Shown: piece by piece, positions 12,383 to 39,202 of the stretch
How the letters are laid out: each line of letters begins with the position of its first letter
How positions within the stretch are numbered: position 1 is the first letter of the stretch
DNA from: Candidatus Giovannonibacteria bacterium RIFCSPHIGHO2_01_FULL_45_24
GTDB lineage: Bacteria > Patescibacteriota > Minisyncoccia > UBA11713 > 2-01-FULL-45-33
DNA length: 53,086 bases
Assembly: GCA_001778495.1 (NCBI GenBank)
Contig: MFHE01000006.1
Coordinates: forward strand, 1 to 53,086
Reading direction: 5' to 3'
The notes under the pieces: generated by a model
The model's database searches: none
What the model was told of the DNA's origin: nothing
The model's input: the letters and a program-made list of their open reading frames with translations, nothing else
Translations under genes and position numbers: made by a program

Positions 12383-12454
12383 GCCGGCGTAGCTCAGCGG
12401 TAGAGCAGCTGTTTTGTAAACAGCAGGTCGTCAGTTCAAATCTGACCGCCGGCT
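12383..12454 (+). tRNA. tRNA-Thr(TGT)
   Basis: Cloverleaf GCCGGCG..CGCCGGC; anticodon stem GCTGT-TTTGTAA-ACAGC; T-arm GTTCAAATC. Confidence 0.95.
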
Positions 12455-21258: not shown

Positions 21259-23976
21259 ATGCCTCCATTAGGACAATTTACGATAAAGGCCCAGGAGGCC
21301 TTGAAAAAGGCGCATGAGCTGGCGATAGAGCGCGGCTCAAGCCAGATAGACGGCTCGCATCTTTTGGCCGCGCTGATTTTGCAGGAAGAAGGCGTTGTGC
21401 CATCTTTGCTGGACAAACTGGAAATAGACAACGCCGGCCTTTTGGATTTGGTGACGGGCGAGCTTGAGAGCCCCATCCGCTCCAGCGTCCTTTCCCCGGC
21501 GCATCAGATTTACCTGACGCCGGAGCTGGCCAGAATTTTGGAAGAAGCCCACAAGTCAGCCATCTTTTTAAAAGACGAATTCATTTCAACCGAGCACCTG
21601 TTTTTGGGCATTTTGGAAGCGCCGTCGCGGGCGAAAGATTTACTCTCCAGATTTTCTTTAAACCGCGAAATGGTTTTGCGAGCGCTTGCCGACATACGCG
21701 GAACCCAGAGGGTTACGGACGCCGAGCCGGAGAATAAATATCGCGCGCTTGAAAGATACGCCAGAAATCTGACCCGGCTCGCGCGCGAAGACAAGCTTGA
21801 CCCGGTTATCGGCAGGGATGGCGAAATCAGGCGGGTAATGCAGGTGCTTTCCCGCCGGACGAAAAACAACCCGGTTTTAATAGGCGAGGCCGGCGTGGGA
21901 AAAACCGCCATCGTTGAGGGTTTAGCTCTGCGCGTTTCTTCCGGGGACGTTCCGGAAGGCCTGAAAGACAGGGAATTGATTTCTCTTGATTTGGGGGCTT
22001 TGGTGGCCGGGACAAAATATAGGGGAGAATTTGAGGAGCGCTTAAAAGCTGTAATGAAAGAGCTTGAGCGCGCTTCCGGCAAATTCATATTGTTCATAGA
22101 CGAACTCCATACGCTCGTTGGCGCCGGAGCCGCCGAAGGGTCAATGGACGCTTCCAATATGCTGAAACCCGCTTTGGCCAGAGGGGAGTTGCACGCGATC
22201 GGCGCCACAACTTTGAAGGAATACCAAAAATACATAGAAAAGGATGCAGCGCTGGCCAGACGCTTCCAGCCGGTTTACGTTGAGGAGCCCTCAACGGAAG
22301 ATACAGTTTCAATCCTTCGCGGCATAAAAAGCAAATATGAACTGCACCACGGCATAAAAATTACCGATTCGGCGATAACCACGGCCGTAAATCTTTCCGC
22401 GCGCTACATCACTGACCGCTTTTTGCCGGACAAAGCCATTGACCTTATAGACGAAGCAGCTTCTTCACTGCGCCTCCAGATGGATAGCATGCCAAATGAA
22501 CTTGAGGAAGCCAGAAGGGAAACGATGCGGCTGGAGATTGAAAAGGAGGCGCTGAAAAAAGAGGAAAATGCCCCGGAGAACAAGCAAAAAGTGAGAAAAC
22601 TGCAAAAACAGCTGGGCGAGCTCAAAGAAAAAACCGGAGGGCTGGAGTTTCGCTGGAAGCACGAGAAAGAAACCATAGATTCCATCCGCCAGCTTAAAAA
22701 AGATTTGGACGCTTTGCGCCAGGAGTCAGAGGCGGCGGAGCGGAAAGGCGATTTGGCGAAGGTCGCCGAAATACGCTACGGGCGCGTTCCGGAATTCCAA
22801 AAAAAGCTGTTTGCCGAGGAGGGCAAGCTCCGGAAACTGCAGGGGTCAAGGCGCATTTTGCGCGAGGAAATTATTGAAGAAGACATCGCAGACATTGTTT
22901 CTAAGTGGACGGGCATACCCGTGCGCCGGATGCTTGAATCTGAAGCCAAGAAACTTTTGAGAATGGAAGGCGAGCTTAAAAAGCGCGTCGTGGGCCAGGA
23001 AGAAGTTATTGAAAAAATATCCCAAGCCATCCGCCGCTCGCGCGCCGGGATTGCGGATGAGAAGCGGCCCATAGGGTCCTTTATGTTTTTGGGGCCGACC
23101 GGGGTAGGCAAGACAGAACTCGCTCTGGCTTTGGCGGAGTTTCTTTTCAACGACGAAAAAGCGCTGGTGCGGGTGGATATGTCGGAATACATGGAGCGGC
23201 ACGCCGTCTCCAAATTTATCGGCTCGCCGCCGGGATACGTCGGCTATGAAGAAAGCGGGCACCTTACCGAGGCCATTCGCCACAGGCCTTACGCCGTTTT
23301 GCTTTTTGATGAAATTGAGAAAGCGCACCCGGAAGTTTTCAACATAATGCTCCAGATTTTGGACAACGGCACCCTCACCGACGCTAAGGGTAGGCATGTG
23401 AATTTCAAAAACACGGTTATCATTATGACCTCCAACATAGGCGGGGAATTTACCCGTGAGATGGGGAGTTTGGGATTCGTTTCGGAGAGCAGCGGTAAAA
23501 TTGCCAAGCGCGAAGACGAGCTTAAAGCCAAAATCCAGCGCGCGCTGGAGAACCATTTCCGCCCGGAATTTTTAAACCGGCTGGACGATATAATCATATT
23601 TAATTCTCTGACGCCGGAGATGTTGAGGCAAATCGCCAAAATACAGATTATGAAGCTTGCCCGGCGCGTCAGCGGCAGAGGCATTGAGATTTTGGTAAAT
23701 AAATCCGCCGAGGACGCTCTGGCAAAAGATGGCTACGACCCCAATTACGGCGCGCGGCCTCTGCGCCGGCTTATCCAAAACAAAATTTTGAACCTGCTTG
23801 CTGAAAAAATAATTTCAAAGCAGATAAAAGAAGGCGACACGGCTTTGGTGGATTACAAAGACGGCGAGTTTGTAATCTCCGTAAAGAAGTCATCCGCCCC
23901 TTTGCCAGAGAAGCCGAAAAAGGTTAAAATAGTTGCGGGCGCAGGTGGCGGAGTGGTCAATCGCACGCGGCTGTAA
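21259..23976 (+). CDS. clpB: Clp ATPase, ClpB-type (two AAA+ domains and long middle coiled coil)
   Basis: [57 protein letters not shown] middle domain; ATG at 21259. Confidence 0.88.
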
Positions 23977-24023
23977 ACCGCGCGCCCGGAAGGGCTACGA
24001 AGGTTCGAATCCTTCCCTGCGCA
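23939..24023 (+). tRNA. tRNA-Tyr(GTA), overlapping the clpB 3' end
   Basis: Acceptor GCGCAGG/CCTGCGC; anticodon arm CGCGG-CTGTAAA-CCGCG; long variable arm; T-arm GAAGGTTCGAATCCTTC. Confidence 0.93.
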
Positions 24024-24033
24024 AAATTTTTTT

Positions 24034-24106
24034 GCCGAGGTAGCTCAGTTGGCAGAGCACGCCCTTGGTAAGGGCGAGGTCGGGAGTTCAATCCTCCCCC
24101 TCGGCT
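24034..24106 (+). tRNA. tRNA-Thr(GGT)
   Basis: Acceptor GCCGAGG/CCTCGGC; anticodon loop TTGGTAA. Confidence 0.95.
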
Positions 24107-25254: not shown

Positions 25255-25325
25255 GGGAGATTAGTTAAGTGGCATAACTGCGGTCTCCAAAACCGCTATC
25301 GGGGGTTCGATTCCCTCATCTCCCG
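25255..25325 (+). tRNA. tRNA-Trp(CCA)
   Basis: Acceptor GGGAGAT/ATCTCCC; anticodon stem GCGGT-CTCCAAA-ACCGC. Confidence 0.95.
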
Positions 25326-30865: not shown

Positions 30866-33800
30866 ATGAAAGATTCTCGCGAAATTATCTTAGAAGGAGA
30901 AAGATATATCACGGCTTCCGAGGCCGCGGCTGTTTGCGGTTATACGCGCATCTATGTTGGGCAGCTTTGCCGCGAGGAAAAAATCAAAGGAAAAAAAATC
31001 GGCACCGACTGGGTGGTTTCCGAAAAATCTATTTTGGATTACAAAAAATCCATCTTGCGGACGCAAGAGAAAATGGAGCCGCAAATTATCCTTACAAAGC
31101 AAGCAATCTTTCATACAACAGATGAATGGGATAAGGAGATTTTAGGCGAGCAACAAAAAGCTCCGAAATTTTCTCTGAAGCAATGGTCGCTGGGAGCGGC
31201 TTCTCTCTCGTCAGTGCTGATTGCCGCGCTGATTTTTTATAACGCTGGCGCAATTGGAAGGAGTATTGCGGGCGCGGTTGAAAGTGTTAACGTCTCCGCG
31301 ATGAAAACAGCAGACACTATTTCACAAAACGCATTTGCCATTGCCGATGCAACTGTAAACAATATTGTCTTTGCGAAGGACGGAATAATCAGTGCTGTTG
31401 AAAGTGTTAACGTCTCCGCGAAAAAATTCGCGAACAATGTTTCGAATTTTGGAAATTCTAGTTTGAAGCTTGCGCAAAACGGCAAAAATCGGGTTTCGGA
31501 AACCGCATTTGCTGTCGCGGACGAAATCAACAATAATGTTGTCTTTGCGAAAGAAAAAATCTTTAACCTTGCTTACGCCGCGAGTCAATCGGTTTTAGAT
31601 TTTGGAAGTTCGGGCTTGGGATTTGCTTGGAATTTAGAGCTTGGCGCTCGGGATTTTGCTCAAGACGCCGCAAGGGCAACTTTAGGCAATATCATCTCCG
31701 TGAAAAAACTTACTGCCGAATTTTTTGAGGTTTTCACTTCACCCTCTTCCCCAACTCTCCTTACTAAGGAGGGAGGGTTGGGAGGCGAGGTTAATGTTAA
31801 AGCAGTGCTCGGGAACGTTTTCCAAAGCATCAAAGACCGGGCTTCGCTGGCTCTTGCTTTGCCCGAATTCTCGCTTCCGTCTTTGCCTTTTACTTTGGAG
31901 GACGTCAAATTCTCCATCACCGACCTAAGAGACAGATTTATAAACAACGTCCTCGGCTGGCGGGGATACATAGCGTCTTTGGGGAGCGACCTGAAACTGG
32001 CGGCAAGAGACTTCTTCTCGGTTAAGCCGCCTGAAGTTGCGGAAGCCCCATCTCCCACAACCCCTCCTTCTAAAGGAGGGGAAAATGAAGGCAGCAAAAT
32101 CATAACTTTCGGAGAGGCGACTTCCACACTTCCCCAAAATCCCCTCCTTACCAAGGAGGGGAAAGGGGAGGTTAGAACAGTAATTGAAAAAATTATCTCC
32201 GGCATCTCTCAAGCCGATTTAGACCAGCGCCTCTCTTCTCTCAACCAAGTCATCCTGGCCCAAGTCCAGCTTTCTCTGGCGGCTTTAGAAAAACGGCTTC
32301 CTTCCAATCAAGTCCAAAACCCCGTTGTCTTTCTCACGACTTCAATCCCCGGGCCTTACTCTTCCTCTCCTTCCCAAACCGGCTCCGGCGTTTCTGCTTC
32401 TTTCGGAGATTTTTCCAACGGGATTTCCACCGGCGGCAACTTAAGAGCTTCAGGAAACGTGACTCTCGGGGCTGAAGGCAAAGACGTATCCGTTACTTCC
32501 AATGTTTGGAATATCACTTCAGCGGGAGCGGCATCGGGGCTGACCTCCCTTACCTCTACTTCAATCAACTCCACTTCTTTAACCACGGGGACGCTTACGG
32601 CATCTTCCGGGAACATATCGAGTGGCTTAGCCGCCTCCTCAACCCTTCAGGTTACGGGGGACATGACTCTTTACGGCAATCTCGCTTTCTTCAACCAAGC
32701 CACCACGACCATTCCGGCTTCTTTAATGAATGCCCTGACCTTCGCCACCTCATCGGCTTCAGTCCCTTTTTTCACCTTTGACACAAAAAACTACAGAATC
32801 GGCATAGGAACAACTTCTCCCGGCGCGACTTTTTCGGTAAGCGGGGACATACTTGCCAGCGGAGGGCTTAACGTCTCCGGCGCTTCAATGAACGTAAACG
32901 CCACCACAACTCTCACCGAACAGCTTTTGGTCACAAAAAGCCCGACAGTTTCTCACACTTTCGGCACTTGGGCTGTTGGCGTTGCCAACTCCGCGGTCAC
33001 GGACTCGGTTGTGGTCATCAACCCGGCTTCGGCGGCGGCGGATACCAACCTTTTCGGCGCCGCGGTTGGAGGAGCGGTCCGCTTTCTGGTTGACGCTGAC
33101 GGGGATGTTTTCGCCAACGGGCTAACCACGGTAGGCGGCACGACTTTGGCTTCAACCACCGCCTCCAACTTCACTGTTGAAAATCAATTTACAATGGGAG
33201 ACGCCCCCAATGCCGACAGCCATATTTTTAATGGAAGAATCACTCATTTAGCCACCACTACCGGAGCCGCGTATACAATGTGGAATTCAACCGTTTCGGG
33301 CGACCTTCTGCGCCTTCAGGACGGAGACACCTCTCCCACCACCAGATTCGTTTTCTCGGCCGCGGGGCAAGCCGCTTTTGGAACCACTACTCACTCTGGG
33401 CTCTCGGTGCTCACTATAGGGGCTACCACAACTACCGCTATTCCTCTTACATTAAAAGGAGTCACGAGCCAATCCGCCGACCTTTTCCGCGTCCTCTCCT
33501 CGTCCGACTCCTCGCTTTTCAACGTGACCGGAGCAGGCAATGTCGGCATCGGGACGACGAGTCCGGCGCAGCTTCTGTCGGTTCAGGGGAATAGTTATAT
33601 TTCAGGAACTTCATTTTTCGGAGGGGCGATTACGGCAACCTCAACTCTCGCCATCTCTGGAGCCATCACTTCCACCGCCTCGGGCGCCAACACTTTTCCT
33701 TACGCTTCCACGACTGCTTTAACTGTTTCAGGAACCGCAAGCACTACCAATTTCACGGCTTCCGCCATGACTTCCGGCTCCGTTCTTTTCGCGGGCGCGG

Positions 33801-36800
33801 GAGGACTTTTATCGCAGGACAATTCAAACCTCTTTTGGGATGATACGAATAACAGACTCGGCATCGGGACGACGAGCCCGTGGGGGCTTCTTTCGGTAAA
33901 TCCCAACGGCATCGCCGGTCCCGCGTTCGTGGTCGGCTCTTCAACCAAGTGCGTTACCGGGGACACCAAGCTTAAACGCCGCCGCAAGAGACGCCGCAAA
34001 AACGGCAAAGGCGAGTGGGAAGAGGAAGAATATTTTGAAGATACGCGGATTGATGAGATTAAAGAAGGAGACGAAATCCTCACGCTGGACGAAAAAACCG
34101 GCAAGCTTAAGGTCTCCCGCGTCAACAAACTTATGGATATGGGCGTTAAAGAAATCTACACTCTGACCACCGCCACCGGCAAAAAAATCCGCACCACCGC
34201 TAACCATCCTTATCTTCTCGCGCCGGAATTTCCGAAAGAGCGCGTCGCGATATTCATTGACGGGGCGAATGTAGAAGCAAGTTTGCGGCATATGAGCGCG
34301 AGGATTGACTACCAAGAGCTTCTTTCGGCGTTCGGCGGGAAAGAAGCGGTTTCGCGCGCGGGATTTTATAAAGTTGATTTCCAGCACAAAGGACAAGGCC
34401 AATTCTTTACCCGGCTCAAGAAACTTGGCTATCGGCTTATTACTAAACCCCTTAAAATCATTGAACAGCGCCATCTCGCCGACGAGCATAAGGGAAATTT
34501 TGACGTTGAGATCGCCGTTGACGCCGTAGAGCGCAAAAACGCTTTTGATACTGCGGTGCTCTTCTCCGGCGATTCGGATTTTGCTTATCTTGCCGAGCGG
34601 CTCCAGCAAAATGGTAAACGTTTATTAGTTATTGCTCCTTATCGGGCCACCGGCAGAGAGCTGCGCAAACAGGCGGACGTGTTTTTAAGCCTCGCCGATA
34701 TGCCCTTCGTTGATTTCGGAGCAACTAAAAAAGCCCCGCAAAGGGGGCATCACAACCGGCTTTCACCGGCACTTCCCATCCTAGCGCAGGCGCATCCCTA
34801 TGTCAACGGGGGGGTGTGGACAAAGGTTTCCGAAATTAAGGAAGGGCAGATGATTGCGACTTCCGGCGCGAACGGCAAACCGGTCTTTGAAAGAATTATG
34901 TCAATTGAAAAAACCGCCGCCGAGCAGGTCTACGACATAGAAGTGGAAGGCACGCACAATTTCATCGGCAACGACATCGTGGCGCACAATACCTATCTCA
35001 CTGTAACCAACGGCGGCAACGTCGGCATCGGGACGACAAATCCCGGGGCAAATCTGGATGTAGATGTGCCGTCAGGTCAAGGTACTATAAGATTGAGTGA
35101 TACTAACGTTAATGTTATTAAATTATCGGACGCTTCCAGTGGTGCTACTACAAACGGGATAATATCAGTATATTCAGGTGGAACTGAAAATATCAAATTG
35201 TTTGCTAGTAGTAATGATTCATCTTGGATTAATGCTGGCAACGTCGGCATCGGGACGACGAGTCCGGCGACAAGATTGTCAGTGCAGGGAAATGGTTTGT
35301 TTTCAGGAAACCTTACAATCGCCGGGCTGACCGCTACCGGAACGGCTTCGTTCAATGCTGACGCAAGAACAAGCGGCTCATCGGCCCTTTGGAGTTTTGC
35401 CGGAGGAGCAGACACCGGTCTTACGGCTTCCACCGAGGCCACTGACGCGCAATTCAATCTGGCCAGAACAAAAACCCACGCCAACGGAACAATCACGCTT
35501 CAGCGGGACGCGTTAATCAATGCCGCGACCCATGCTTTCACCAATTTCGCTTCAGGCAACATAACCGACCTCGCGACTCTCGGGATTACCGGAGCTCCTT
35601 TGGCGGGAACTAATGCCACAACCACCAACGCCCATACCATATATCTGGGCGCCTCTGCCCTTAACGCCTCCACCACCAATTCATACGGCCTTACGGTCAA
35701 CGCCAACACGGGAGCGACAAACAATTATGCCGCGGCTTTTCTTGGCGGCAACGTCGGAATAGGGACGACCTCACCTTGGGGGCTTCTTTCCGTAAATCCC
35801 AACGGCATCACCGGCCCGGCGTTCGTGGTCGGGTCTTCAACCCAGTGCGTTACTGGGGACACTCGCCTTCGTCGAAGACGAAGGAAATCCAAAGGCAAAA
35901 GCTCAAATGCCAAATCAAGCTCAAAGTTCAAAATCCAAAAATTGGGAGAAGACGAGGAATTCATCTATGAAGAAGTCGCGATTGTGGATGTCCAGTCCGG
36001 AGACGAAATCGCCTCCTTGGACGAGACAACCGGAAAAATTGTCTGGTCAAAAGTGAGAGCGCTTATGCATATGGGCCGAAAACCGATTATTGAGCTGGAA
36101 ACGGCGCTCGGCAGGAAAATCAGGACAACGGAAAATCATCCTTATTTTGTTCGCGAACGCGCGTCGGAACCGATTCGAGCGGTGGCGTTTATTGATTACG
36201 CGAATATAAAATCATGGCTTATTGATAAAAAGCTGCGGATTGATCTCGATTTGCTCCACAGGGAGCTAAAAACCTCCGGTGTAAAAGAAGTCAGGTTTTA
36301 CTACGGTTCTGACGAGCTGGGCAAAAATACCTCTTTTTTCGCGGCACTGCGCCGAATGGGCTACGCAGTTATCACCAAGCCAGTTCAGTACTTTGCAGTA
36401 CGGCTTTTGGATATTTTACAAAAGTCTCGGAATCGTCGATGGCTTGATGCGCTTTCACAAAATATCCGCGAGACGCTTCTTAAAGAGTCGAGCCAACTTG
36501 ATACTAAAGGCATTCGCTTGTTTGAGCCGAAAGCAAACTTTGACGTTGAGATTGCGGCAGACGCGCTGGAAATGGCTAATTCTTTTGATGCTGTTTTGCT
36601 TTTCTCCGGCGACGGGGATTTTGCGGATCTCGCGCGACGCCTTTCTGCCAAAGGCAAACAGGTAATCGTAATTTCCGGCAGGAAGTTCATGTCAGGGGTT
36701 TTGATGGGCGAAGCGGACGGGTTTGTGTTTATGGAGCAATTGGCAAAAATGATCCCCGGCCTGGTTTCTTCAGGTGAAAAGGCAAAACCTGCCTTGCGGC

Positions 36801-39202
36801 AGGTCTTGAAGAATAGTAACTCTATTGTAGCAAGGCCGCCGTCCTTGTCAAGCGGGGGGGTGTGGACAAAAGTGGCGAAGCTGAAAGAAGGACAGGAAAT
36901 CGCGGTTTTGGGCAAAAACGGGAAGCCGGTATGGGATAAAATTACAAGCATGCGCGAACTTCCTTCCGAGGATGTCTTTGACATAGAAGTTGAAGGCACG
37001 CACAACTTCATCGGCAACGACATCGTGGCGCACAACACCTATCTCACCGTCACCAACGGCGGCAACGTCGGGATAGGGACGACGAGTCCAGCGAGTTTGC
37101 TCTCGGTTCAGGGCAATGCTCTTTTTTCCGGCAACCTTTCTTTGGCTAATCTCACGGCGACCGGAACAGTTAACTTCACCGGCACCGGAGCGACTACTAC
37201 GATTTCGGGCGGGCTGGTCGCGGGTAATAACGCCGCTTTGGTGGTCAACCAAGCGGCGACGGCAAATAGTCTCTATATTACAAATGCGGGCAACGTCGGC
37301 ATAGGGACGGCTGCGCCGAAAACCCTGCTCCATATAAAAGAAGGCGCCGGCACTGGCTTGACGCCGGACAGCTCGACCTGGCTTTTCATAGACTCGGGCA
37401 CGAACAGCGACATAACGCTGGGTTCGCCCAACGGCAATCTTGGCAGAATCCTTTTCGCGGACCCCCAGAACAACGCCATAGGAATAATCTCCTACAACCA
37501 CGCTTTGGATGCAATGACTTTTACAGTCAACAACGCAACAAGGCTGTCAATAGATGCAGCCGGCAACGTCGGCATCGGGACGACGAGTCCAGCGACAACG
37601 CTAAGCGTCGCGGGCAATACTTATCTTGATTCCAATCTCATCACTTATTCTTCCTCCACCGCCGCCAATCTTACTTTTTCCTATCAGAGCTCCGCGACCT
37701 CAACTTTGCCGCAAAGCGTCAACGCTTTCTCTTTCGCCACTTCAACGACCGCGACGCCGATACTTTCAATAAACGGGCTTAACGGCAAAGTCGGCATCGG
37801 GAGAACGGCAGCAGTAGAACTTGATGTAATTGGACATTTTAGAGTTAGTAATGCTGGAGCTACTAGTATCTACATACAAAATACTGCTTCTGCCCAACAA
37901 TGGGATATACAAAATAAAGTAACAACTAGCAATTTAGCATTTCTTAATCAAGCCGGGACAGAGGTTTTGACAATTCTAAATACTAACGGCAACGTTGGGA
38001 TTGGGACGACGAGTCCGCAGACCAAACTGGAAATCGTGAATACTTCTTCCGGCGCAACCGCAGATCAGCTTTTTATTTCAAATCTTGATTCGGCAACCTC
38101 AACCGCGTCGCGTCTGACTTTCAGAGCAAATGACATTACCAATGGAACTTCAACTGCCGCCATCACTTCAATACTCCAGCAGAACTTTAACACCGGAAAA
38201 GGCGACCTTGCGTTCTCCACGCTGCGCTCCGGCGCCCTCACCGAAGCGATGCGCATCACAAACACCGGCAAAGTCGGCATCGCAAGCACGACGCCATGGA
38301 GAACATTCGGTGTTACCGGCACGGTGGGCTTTGACGGGCTTACGGCCGGAGCCGGAGCCGGAGCTCTCTGCCTCTCCGCGAACAAGGAAGTCACATATAG
38401 CGATGGCGCGGCCTGCACGGGTTCTTCGCAACGTTTCAAACACGACATTAATTCGCTTGGCGCCGGAGCGCTTGAAACGGTATTAAGTTTGCGCCCCGTA
38501 TCGTTCCTTTATAATGACGACATTGGAGTTCGGGGAGAACAGGTCGGTTTAATCGCGGAAGAAGTTTTCAGTATTGACCCGCGGCTTGTCACGCTTGACG
38601 CGTCGTCTACGCCAACCAACGTTAAGTACGCGAATTTGACCGCGGTTCTCGCCAAGGCGATACAGGAACTGAACGCGAAAGTAGAAGCTTTGATGGGGGG
38701 CGCCAGCTTGTCGCTTGATGCCAACGGAAAACTGGTTGTAAGTGAGATTGAAACAGGGAAGCTCACCGTCACCGGCCCGCAAGGAATTACGATTTATGAC
38801 AAAAAAGGACAGGCGGGGTGTTTGAGCGTTGAAGACGTGGCGACGGGAGCAATTTCGGTCACGGCGGGCGCTTGCGGGACCGCCACAAATGTTCAAAGCT
38901 CGGTTTTCAACACTTCGACAACTACAACCGACACCATTCCTCCCACCATCACAATTTTGGGCAACAATCCTGCAACGATTGAAGTCGGCGCGAGCTACGC
39001 GGATTTGGGAGTTAGCGTGACCGACAATGTTGACCAGAATCTTGGCTACACTGCCTCGCTTGACGGCGGGCCGGAGCTTTCGCAAGGCGCTGGGCTTTCG
39101 CTGGATACTTCAACTACCACAACACACACAATTTTATACAAAGCCGTTGACCAGGCGGGGAACGTCGAAACGGCCCAAAGAACGGTGGAGGTGGTTGAAT
39201 AA
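30866..39202 (+). CDS. Giant HTH-TM-fibre protein with two inteins, Peptidase_S74 chaperone domain and C-terminal DUF5011-like domain
   Basis: N-terminal YITASEAAAVCGYTRIYVGQLCREEKIKGKKIGTDWVV (excisionase-like HTH); TM LGAASLSSVLIAALIFYNAG; many GNVGIGTTSP repeats; SSQRFKHDINSLG..LRPVSFLYND..GLIAEEV (S74); PTITILGNNPATIEVGASYADLGVSVTDN (DUF5011-like). Confidence 0.88.
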   Translation: MKDSREIILEGERYITASEAAAVCGYTRIYVGQLCREEKIKGKKIGTDWVVSEKSILDYKKSILRTQEKMEPQIILTKQAIFHTTDEWDKEILGEQQKAPKFSLKQWSLGAASLSSVLIAALIFYNAGAIGRSIAGAVESVNVSAMKTADTISQNAFAIADATVNNIVFAKDGIISAVESVNVSAKKFANNVSNFGNSSLKLAQNGKNRVSETAFAVADEINNNVVFAKEKIFNLAYAASQSVLDFGSSGLGFAWNLELGARDFAQDAARATLGNIISVKKLTAEFFEVFTSPSSPTLLTKEGGLGGEVNVKAVLGNVFQSIKDRASLALALPEFSLPSLPFTLEDVKFSITDLRDRFINNVLGWRGYIASLGSDLKLAARDFFSVKPPEVAEAPSPTTPPSKGGENEGSKIITFGEATSTLPQNPLLTKEGKGEVRTVIEKIISGISQADLDQRLSSLNQVILAQVQLSLAALEKRLPSNQVQNPVVFLTTSIPGPYSSSPSQTGSGVSASFGDFSNGISTGGNLRASGNVTLGAEGKDVSVTSNVWNITSAGAASGLTSLTSTSINSTSLTTGTLTASSGNISSGLAASSTLQVTGDMTLYGNLAFFNQATTTIPASLMNALTFATSSASVPFFTFDTKNYRIGIGTTSPGATFSVSGDILASGGLNVSGASMNVNATTTLTEQLLVTKSPTVSHTFGTWAVGVANSAVTDSVVVINPASAAADTNLFGAAVGGAVRFLVDADGDVFANGLTTVGGTTLASTTASNFTVENQFTMGDAPNADSHIFNGRITHLATTTGAAYTMWNSTVSGDLLRLQDGDTSPTTRFVFSAAGQAAFGTTTHSGLSVLTIGATTTTAIPLTLKGVTSQSADLFRVLSSSDSSLFNVTGAGNVGIGTTSPAQLLSVQGNSYISGTSFFGGAITATSTLAISGAITSTASGANTFPYASTTALTVSGTASTTNFTASAMTSGSVLFAGAGGLLSQDNSNLFWDDTNNRLGIGTTSPWGLLSVNPNGIAGPAFVVGSSTKCVTGDTKLKRRRKRRRKNGKGEWEEEEYFEDTRIDEIKEGDEILTLDEKTGKLKVSRVNKLMDMGVKEIYTLTTATGKKIRTTANHPYLLAPEFPKERVAIFIDGANVEASLRHMSARIDYQELLSAFGGKEAVSRAGFYKVDFQHKGQGQFFTRLKKLGYRLITKPLKIIEQRHLADEHKGNFDVEIAVDAVERKNAFDTAVLFSGDSDFAYLAERLQQNGKRLLVIAPYRATGRELRKQADVFLSLADMPFVDFGATKKAPQRGHHNRLSPALPILAQAHPYVNGGVWTKVSEIKEGQMIATSGANGKPVFERIMSIEKTAAEQVYDIEVEGTHNFIGNDIVAHNTYLTVTNGGNVGIGTTNPGANLDVDVPSGQGTIRLSDTNVNVIKLSDASSGATTNGIISVYSGGTENIKLFASSNDSSWINAGNVGIGTTSPATRLSVQGNGLFSGNLTIAGLTATGTASFNADARTSGSSALWSFAGGADTGLTASTEATDAQFNLARTKTHANGTITLQRDALINAATHAFTNFASGNITDLATLGITGAPLAGTNATTTNAHTIYLGASALNASTTNSYGLTVNANTGATNNYAAAFLGGNVGIGTTSPWGLLSVNPNGITGPAFVVGSSTQCVTGDTRLRRRRRKSKGKSSNAKSSSKFKIQKLGEDEEFIYEEVAIVDVQSGDEIASLDETTGKIVWSKVRALMHMGRKPIIELETALGRKIRTTENHPYFVRERASEPIRAVAFIDYANIKSWLIDKKLRIDLDLLHRELKTSGVKEVRFYYGSDELGKNTSFFAALRRMGYAVITKPVQYFAVRLLDILQKSRNRRWLDALSQNIRETLLKESSQLDTKGIRLFEPKANFDVEIAADALEMANSFDAVLLFSGDGDFADLARRLSAKGKQVIVISGRKFMSGVLMGEADGFVFMEQLAKMIPGLVSSGEKAKPALRQVLKNSNSIVARPPSLSSGGVWTKVAKLKEGQEIAVLGKNGKPVWDKITSMRELPSEDVFDIEVEGTHNFIGNDIVAHNTYLTVTNGGNVGIGTTSPASLLSVQGNALFSGNLSLANLTATGTVNFTGTGATTTISGGLVAGNNAALVVNQAATANSLYITNAGNVGIGTAAPKTLLHIKEGAGTGLTPDSSTWLFIDSGTNSDITLGSPNGNLGRILFADPQNNAIGIISYNHALDAMTFTVNNATRLSIDAAGNVGIGTTSPATTLSVAGNTYLDSNLITYSSSTAANLTFSYQSSATSTLPQSVNAFSFATSTTATPILSINGLNGKVGIGRTAAVELDVIGHFRVSNAGATSIYIQNTASAQQWDIQNKVTTSNLAFLNQAGTEVLTILNTNGNVGIGTTSPQTKLEIVNTSSGATADQLFISNLDSATSTASRLTFRANDITNGTSTAAITSILQQNFNTGKGDLAFSTLRSGALTEAMRITNTGKVGIASTTPWRTFGVTGTVGFDGLTAGAGAGALCLSANKEVTYSDGAACTGSSQRFKHDINSLGAGALETVLSLRPVSFLYNDDIGVRGEQVGLIAEEVFSIDPRLVTLDASSTPTNVKYANLTAVLAKAIQELNAKVEALMGGASLSLDANGKLVVSEIETGKLTVTGPQGITIYDKKGQAGCLSVEDVATGAISVTAGACGTATNVQSSVFNTSTTTTDTIPPTITILGNNPATIEVGASYADLGVSVTDNVDQNLGYTASLDGGPELSQGAGLSLDTSTTTTHTILYKAVDQAGNVETAQRTVEVVE
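31757..31771. repeat. In-frame palindrome CTCCTTA-C-TAAGGAG, copy 1 (encodes LLTKEG)
   Basis: 7-bp perfect arms inside the fibre gene. Confidence 0.85.
32061..32081. repeat. In-frame palindrome CCCCTCCTT-CTA-AAGGAGGGG, copy 2
   Basis: 9-bp perfect arms. Confidence 0.9.
32141..32161. repeat. In-frame palindrome CCCCTCCTT-ACC-AAGGAGGGG, copy 3
   Basis: 9-bp perfect arms. Confidence 0.9.
33950..34990 (+). mobile_element. Intein 1 (347 aa): Hint splicing domain with embedded NYN domain
   Basis: Block A CVTGDTKL, block B TTANHPYLL, blocks F/G VYDIEVEGTHNFIGNDIVAHN followed by Thr+1; NYN about 34241..34720 (VAIFIDGANVEAS, GNFDVEIAVDAVE, AVLFSGDSDFAYLAERL). Confidence 0.9.
35846..37036 (+). mobile_element. 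Intein 2 (397 aa): Hint splicing domain with embedded NYN domain
   Basis: Block A CVTGDTRL, block B TTENHPYFV, blocks F/G VFDIEVEGTHNFIGNDIVAHN followed by Thr+1; NYN about 36175..36762 (AVAFIDYANIKSW, ANFDVEIAADALE, AVLLFSGDGDFADLARRL). Confidence 0.9.
36787..36804. repeat. Palindrome ACCTGCC-TTGC-GGCAGGT inside intein 2
   Basis: 7-bp perfect arms, in frame (PALRQV). Confidence 0.85.
38423..38690 (+). other. Peptidase_S74 intramolecular chaperone domain
   Basis: SSQRFKHDINSLGAGALETVLSLRPVSFLYNDDIGVRGEQVGLIAEEVFSIDPRLV. Confidence 0.85.

Follow-up and report, generated by a model that had tools for sequence, protein, structure and literature searches.

The closest described counterparts of the element reported here are the DnaB-type class 1 inteins (NpuDnaB, 4o1r; SspDnaB, 1mi8), the inteins that nest a LAGLIDADG homing endonuclease at the position called C35 (PI-PfuI, PI-SceI, VMA), and stand-alone NYN proteins (VPA0982, 2qip; the NYN domain of MARF1; LabA-like proteins). 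We describe two predicted inteins, each with a nested NYN nuclease domain, in one open reading frame (ORF) of Candidatus Giovannonibacteria bacterium RIFCSPHIGHO2_01_FULL_45_24, on a stretch of 53,086 nucleotides of contig MFHE01000006.1 (the window). They resemble DnaB-type inteins in Hint fold, splicing residues, and block order but carry an NYN domain ~25 residues before the C35 slot, and their host is a fibre-like protein instead of a replication enzyme. As in homing-endonuclease inteins, a nuclease is nested in the Hint domain and empty alleles exist; however, the nuclease is neither LAGLIDADG nor HNH, it occupies another slot, and homing is only hypothetical here. The NYN insert has the fold and acidic active site of the stand-alone proteins, yet it is embedded in an intein and would be freed through splicing. 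In some relatives nuclease genes separate the two halves of a split intein, as in the "fractured genes" that Dassa et al. reportedly described in 2009, in which split inteins surround free-standing endonucleases; here, in contrast, the break lies in the slot after block B, and the intervening genes encode a zinc-ribbon PD-(D/E)XK protein and a helical-bundle-like protein, sometimes with an NYN. Our search of the literature available without subscription found no published report of an NYN-in-intein arrangement. We propose, with a probability of roughly 0.6, that these are class 1 NYN inteins at paralogous fibre repeats, which arose by recombination of their frames and exchange of cargo, and whose nuclease serves the intein itself.

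The host ORF and the parts of the two inteins are as follows (window positions).

30866 to 39202, plus strand: host ORF of 2,778 amino acids, interrupted by inteins 1 and 2 (open reading frame)
33950 to 34990, plus strand: predicted intein 1, 347 amino acids, at a paralogous repeat site, NYN at residues 98 to 248 (PF14890, PF01936)
35846 to 37036, plus strand: predicted intein 2, 397 amino acids, CVTGDT...IVAHN, in frame within the host ORF (profile matches, model, NpuDnaB superposition)
35846 to 36148, plus strand: Hint N-part of intein 2, from block A (Cys1) to block B (TENH-P-Y) (motifs)
36167 to 36757, plus strand: NYN nuclease domain of intein 2, residues ~108 to 304, with a helical insert shared with locus L040 (profile, structure matches)
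36857 to 37036, plus strand: Hint C-part of intein 2, ~60 residues, WTKV...HN (motifs, model)

An earlier note on this DNA had described intein 2 as the second of two diverged NYN inteins at paralogous sites of one ORF, and this observation is confirmed: translation returns exactly its coordinates, its length, and its frame in the ORF, the two inteins are 40% identical, and both follow GPAFVVGSST(K/Q) and precede TYLTVTNGGNVGIGTT. Both exceed the curated cut-offs for Intein_splicing PF14890 (78 bits for intein 1, 65.9 for intein 2; cut-off, 35.8) and NYN PF01936 (100.9 and 81 bits; cut-off, 24.2). The C-terminal intein motif profile is above cut-off in both, and the N-terminal one is passed by intein 2 and narrowly missed by intein 1 (22.8 bits against 24.5). 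The class 1 splicing residues are complete in each (Cys1, block B TxxH [T95..H98], H396 N397, and a Thr at +1), and C1, T95, H98, H396, and N397 are among the 27 positions invariant in 25 relatives. We infer from these motifs that both segments are class 1 cis-splicing inteins. The NYN domain is the sole insert that profile search found in either intein, with no known homing-endonuclease family nested in the Hint domain. Its active-site D, N, D, and GDxD are invariant in 25/25 intein-associated copies examined, and such conservation across divergent copies argues for selection for nuclease activity; cleavage of nucleic acid is predicted from the family and the active site. We also considered a bacterial intein-like domain, a class that departs from intein motifs and commonly lacks a +1 nucleophile, and ruled it out on the canonical HN^T junction of both inteins and nearly all relatives.

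In an AlphaFold2 model of intein 2, built with 25 family sequences (predicted local distance difference test score, 85.2), 136 residues of the Hint part superpose on the NpuDnaB intein at 1.2 Å (Z 21.5), and the insert, of PIN-like fold, matches NYN structures (Z 20.4 to VPA0982 [2qip], Z 16.1 to the MARF1 NYN domain). The larger NYN with intact acidic motifs that the earlier note saw in intein 2 is borne out, the surplus being an extra helical insert at model residues ~187 to 224 and all active-site acids being present. The NYN domain enters between the equivalents of NpuDnaB residues 79 and 84, downstream of block B and ahead of the WTKV strand. The canonical C35 slot of intein 2 would lie downstream of it, near 36931/36932, and both window NYNs lie ~60 residues from the intein C-terminus, upstream of C35 and not in it. 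The linker after the NYN domain of intein 2 also holds a small palindrome, ACCTGCC-TTGC-GGCAGGT (36787 to 36804).

With a query that joins the extein sequence on either side of intein 1, we found homologues that run across the junction without a gap in three genomes of the same family (G003, with two loci, G004, and G007), three of these alleles being read residue by residue; inteinless alleles, which the earlier note had suggested looking for, thus exist. One example reads GPAFVVGSSTA-TNFIVTNGGNVGIGT; GPAFVVGSSTA-TNFIVTNGG occupies the empty site in G003 and G007, with a similar sequence in G004. Since the same extein occurs without an intein in same-family genomes, the inteins are genuine insertions, and since these alleles are gap-free, the intein neither adds to nor removes from the extein. 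The host ORF itself has a comparable site:

37562 to 37741, plus strand: repeat without interruption (GNVGIGTTSPATTLSVAGN-TYLDSN), like an empty insertion site (sequence likeness)

The intein-bearing copies are flanked by (K/Q)^TYL, as are most relatives, and short exteins may have been co-inherited or co-converted with the inteins. Across relatives, the conservation of the flanks is at the protein level, G(Q/H)^TY. The interrupted protein comprises an N-terminal helix-turn-helix-like stretch (HTH_17 match under cut-off), a hydrophobic segment, GNVGIGTT repeats, a Peptidase_S74 chaperone, and an Ig-like C-terminus (PF13884 at 39 bits and PF16403 at 41.3 bits, each above cut-off), and is probably a membrane-anchored surface fibre of this ultra-small bacterium of the Candidate Phyla Radiation (CPR). 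Two inteins were found in the 531-kb assembly, both in this ORF.

How the pair arose can be read from the junctions and from the cargo. Near-identity between the two copies is local and confined to four blocks:

33858 to 33966, plus strand: 5' junction block of intein 1, 109 nucleotides, 87% identical to 35754 to 35862 (repeat family D5)
35754 to 35862, plus strand: 5' junction block of intein 2 (repeat family D5)
34920 to 35043, plus strand: 3' junction block of intein 1, 124 nucleotides, 90% identical to 36966 to 37089 (repeat family D4)
36966 to 37089, plus strand: 3' junction block of intein 2 (repeat family D4)

Over the 31 codons of the shared 3' junction, the differences are all third-position and synonymous, as the earlier note had reported, although they number seven and not six. 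Its suggestion of purifying selection fits Nei-Gojobori (NG86) dN/dS ratios of ~0.28 for Hint-C, 0.32 for Hint-N, and 0.24 for the C-terminal half of the NYN domain, from comparisons in which dS reaches 0.9 to 2.0 and is thus near saturation; for the junction itself, gene conversion can account for the near-identity as well as purifying selection can. The note's further suggestion of intragenic homing or duplication is not supported in its plain form, in which one Hint-NYN unit would have been copied. In the NYN tree, intein 1 groups with L032 (support, 96/83) and intein 2 with L040 (99/93), and a clade uniting the two window copies as sisters is rejected by the approximately unbiased test (p-AU 2.5e-5), so that plain duplication of one Hint-NYN unit is ruled out. 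A same-site intein (L002) in the same-family genome G001 is mosaic, joining parts of both Hint frames to an NYN of a third lineage: its first ~200 nucleotides resemble intein 1 (mostly 84 to 88%), its Hint-C resembles intein 2 (73 to 86%), and its NYN resembles neither. Elsewhere, the two inteins of L041 have N-halves 89% identical with an RNase-H-like cargo in one and an NYN in the other, and L066 and L079, from one genome, have N-halves 89% identical with RelE and DUF433-DUF5615 cargos. Because the window NYNs are not sisters, L002 is a mosaic, and these cargos are swapped, Hint frames recombine, and one cargo takes the place of another. Judged from these sequences, the pair is the product of recombination of shared extein and Hint frames with exchange of nuclease cargo, not of the copying of a whole intein. 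Altogether, the interpretation given in the earlier note is partly supported.

A scan of public genomes recovered 77 loci of this family, all from metagenome-assembled genomes in which mis-binning is possible, mostly in CPR bacteria and also in Omnitrophota, Elusimicrobia, Chlamydiae, and Nitrospinota bins. Its distribution is patchy: within the phylum, 10 of 379 genomes have it. Viral contigs yielded four loci only, all distant. One locus in a deltaproteobacterial host (L031) was not counted as a cross-phylum transfer; mis-binning is likely there, as L036, a Sungiibacteriota contig that by its name comes from the same sample, has identical flanks. The cargo census covered 102 paired N- and C-halves, some duplicated between collections. 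About two dozen carry an NYN in sense and two a DUF3800 domain, and a weakly LPD3-like domain also occurs. A further sense cargo, named EVDQS here, is a nuclease-like domain of ~120 residues without a Pfam or NCBIfam match (L050, L033, L039, L041, L046, L052, L078, L094, L095, and L100); Foldseek matches it weakly to RNase-H-like integrases and RNase HII (best E, 0.0036), and stand-alone copies of ~150 amino acids occur in 3 of 285 relatives. Eleven loci are split inteins, broken after block B, whose halves enclose a zinc-ribbon PD-(D/E)XK gene and a helical-bundle-like gene (L053, L058, L059, L060, L063, L068, L075, L080, L085, L096, and L101), and three of them have a separate NYN gene beside the PD-(D/E)XK gene. 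Genes of toxin-antitoxin type (DUF433-DUF5615, ParE/RelE-like, PemK/MazF, and HicB-like) lie antisense within inteins whose sense frame is still open (L051, L057, L069, L070, L072, L079, L082, L083, L084, L087, L089, and L092). This contrast between sense and antisense is partly one of ascertainment, since a fused NYN or EVDQS domain has to be in sense and the need to keep the frame open favours separate genes that run antisense.

Other inteins hold nothing recognisable. ARAGORN found no tRNA genes in such cargo-less inteins. Some inteins without a recognised protein cargo have, antisense in the cargo slot, ~71-nucleotide matches to the tRNA-like part of transfer-messenger RNA (tmRNA; Rfam RF00023, E 1e-6 to 1e-12), which fall short of the gathering score for lack of the messenger part:

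L061, 6389 to 6459, minus strand: tmRNA-like piece (Rfam RF00023)
L062, 6515 to 6585, minus strand: tmRNA-like piece (Rfam RF00023)
L005, 1258 to 1328: tmRNA-like piece (Rfam RF00023)
L094, 11035 to 11105, minus strand: tmRNA-like piece (Rfam RF00023)
L081, 3609 to 3678, minus strand: tmRNA-like piece (Rfam RF00023)

Rfam gave no such piece in the window and no matches in seven further loci. The window has four ordinary tRNA genes (12383 to 12454, 23939 to 24023, 24034 to 24106, and 25255 to 25325).

Slots were assigned by eye, and on that basis the position after block B holds 17 of the 22 fused NYNs, all 13 EVDQS domains, both DUF3800 domains, and all 11 split points. The C35 slot holds the other 5 NYNs and 12 of the 19 antisense toxin-antitoxin cargos; of the remainder, 5 lie after block B and 2 are unclear.

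We propose a model in which splicing would yield an intact fibre together with a free Hint-NYN protein, and the NYN would then serve the intein itself, acting either in place of a homing endonuclease or as a nuclease of addiction type, so that the element spreads or is hard to lose; spread or persistence of the intein is the most likely role of the NYN. Several points weigh against this proposal. Characterised NYN nucleases are mostly RNases, so that a role in DNA homing is unproven; 17 of the 22 fused NYNs lie away from the homing-endonuclease position; relatives carry toxin-antitoxin genes, which are unable to drive homing; and no long DNA target shared between insertion sites was seen, since of the flank codons only CAG at -1 and GGG at -2 depart from near-background use. 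Some of these points bear also on a stronger version, in which the NYN is a true homing nuclease, Hint-NYN cuts inteinless repeats, repair copies the intein in, and an Arg-rich tract binds DNA. Empty alleles in close relatives would suit it, the mosaic inteins and shared flanks resemble repair tracts, and three split loci place NYN genes next to a PD-(D/E)XK gene with an IS1-type zinc finger. Moreover, an Arg/Lys-rich tract follows block A in 32/32 fused NYN or RNase-H-like inteins tested (median of 9 K+R in 18 residues against 3.5 with antisense toxin-antitoxin cargo), but the presence of the tract also follows phylogeny, and it recurs in some CPR inteins with toxin-antitoxin cargo. With an RNase-like family for which we know of no DNA site specificity and an insertion site weakly conserved at the DNA level, we regard true homing as unlikely.

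Slightly more plausible, though still doubtful, is that the cargo slot acts as a safe harbour: it tolerates any gene since splicing removes it, and NYN or toxin-antitoxin genes persist as addiction or anti-phage modules that guard the intein against loss, without homing. The antisense DUF433-DUF5615, ParE/RelE-like, PemK/MazF, HicB-like, and PIN genes, the frequent exchange of cargo, and the sense frame kept open through antisense genes all fit. However, no antitoxin partner is seen with the fused NYNs, and NYN and RNase-H-like cargos are always encoded in sense and mostly occupy a single slot, a pattern that points to a closer link with the intein than that of a passenger. Delivery of nuclease effectors by the fibre, with Hint freeing an extracellular NYN that would act on neighbouring cells or hosts in the manner of polymorphic toxins, would agree with a host protein resembling a membrane-anchored surface fibre and with several cargos like toxin-type nucleases. 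We consider it very improbable given the complete class 1 motifs with +1 Thr and the intact exteins of inteinless relatives; a polymorphic-toxin PT-HINT domain was itself ruled out (PF07591 at 13.5 and 22.2 bits against a cut-off of 27.7, in inteins that lie mid-protein and not at the C-terminus), and no immunity gene was identified. Finally, a Hint-NYN segment that stays in the fibre permanently as a structural domain, never excised, which the earlier note had named as its refuting case, draws on the open frame alone; the empty alleles in relatives counter it, as do the invariant splicing residues, and we give it next to no credence.

Beyond this locus, the pattern raises the tentative possibility of an intein family of CPR and other little-known bacteria with a second Hint slot, in which exchangeable RNase-type nucleases and toxin-antitoxin genes, acting in addiction or defence, replace classical homing in keeping the intein. 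A previous study found all nested homing endonucleases at C35 and asked why inteins with endonucleases elsewhere were not found (PMC6801210); this question is now directly testable, because most NYNs and every RNase-H-like domain, DUF3800 domain, and split point counted above lie outside C35. If the proposal is true, a natural second slot for large insertions would be of use to protein engineers, the notion of intein cargo would broaden to take in nuclease and toxin-antitoxin genes that can be exchanged, and protein splicing would be a general carrier of small selfish nuclease genes.
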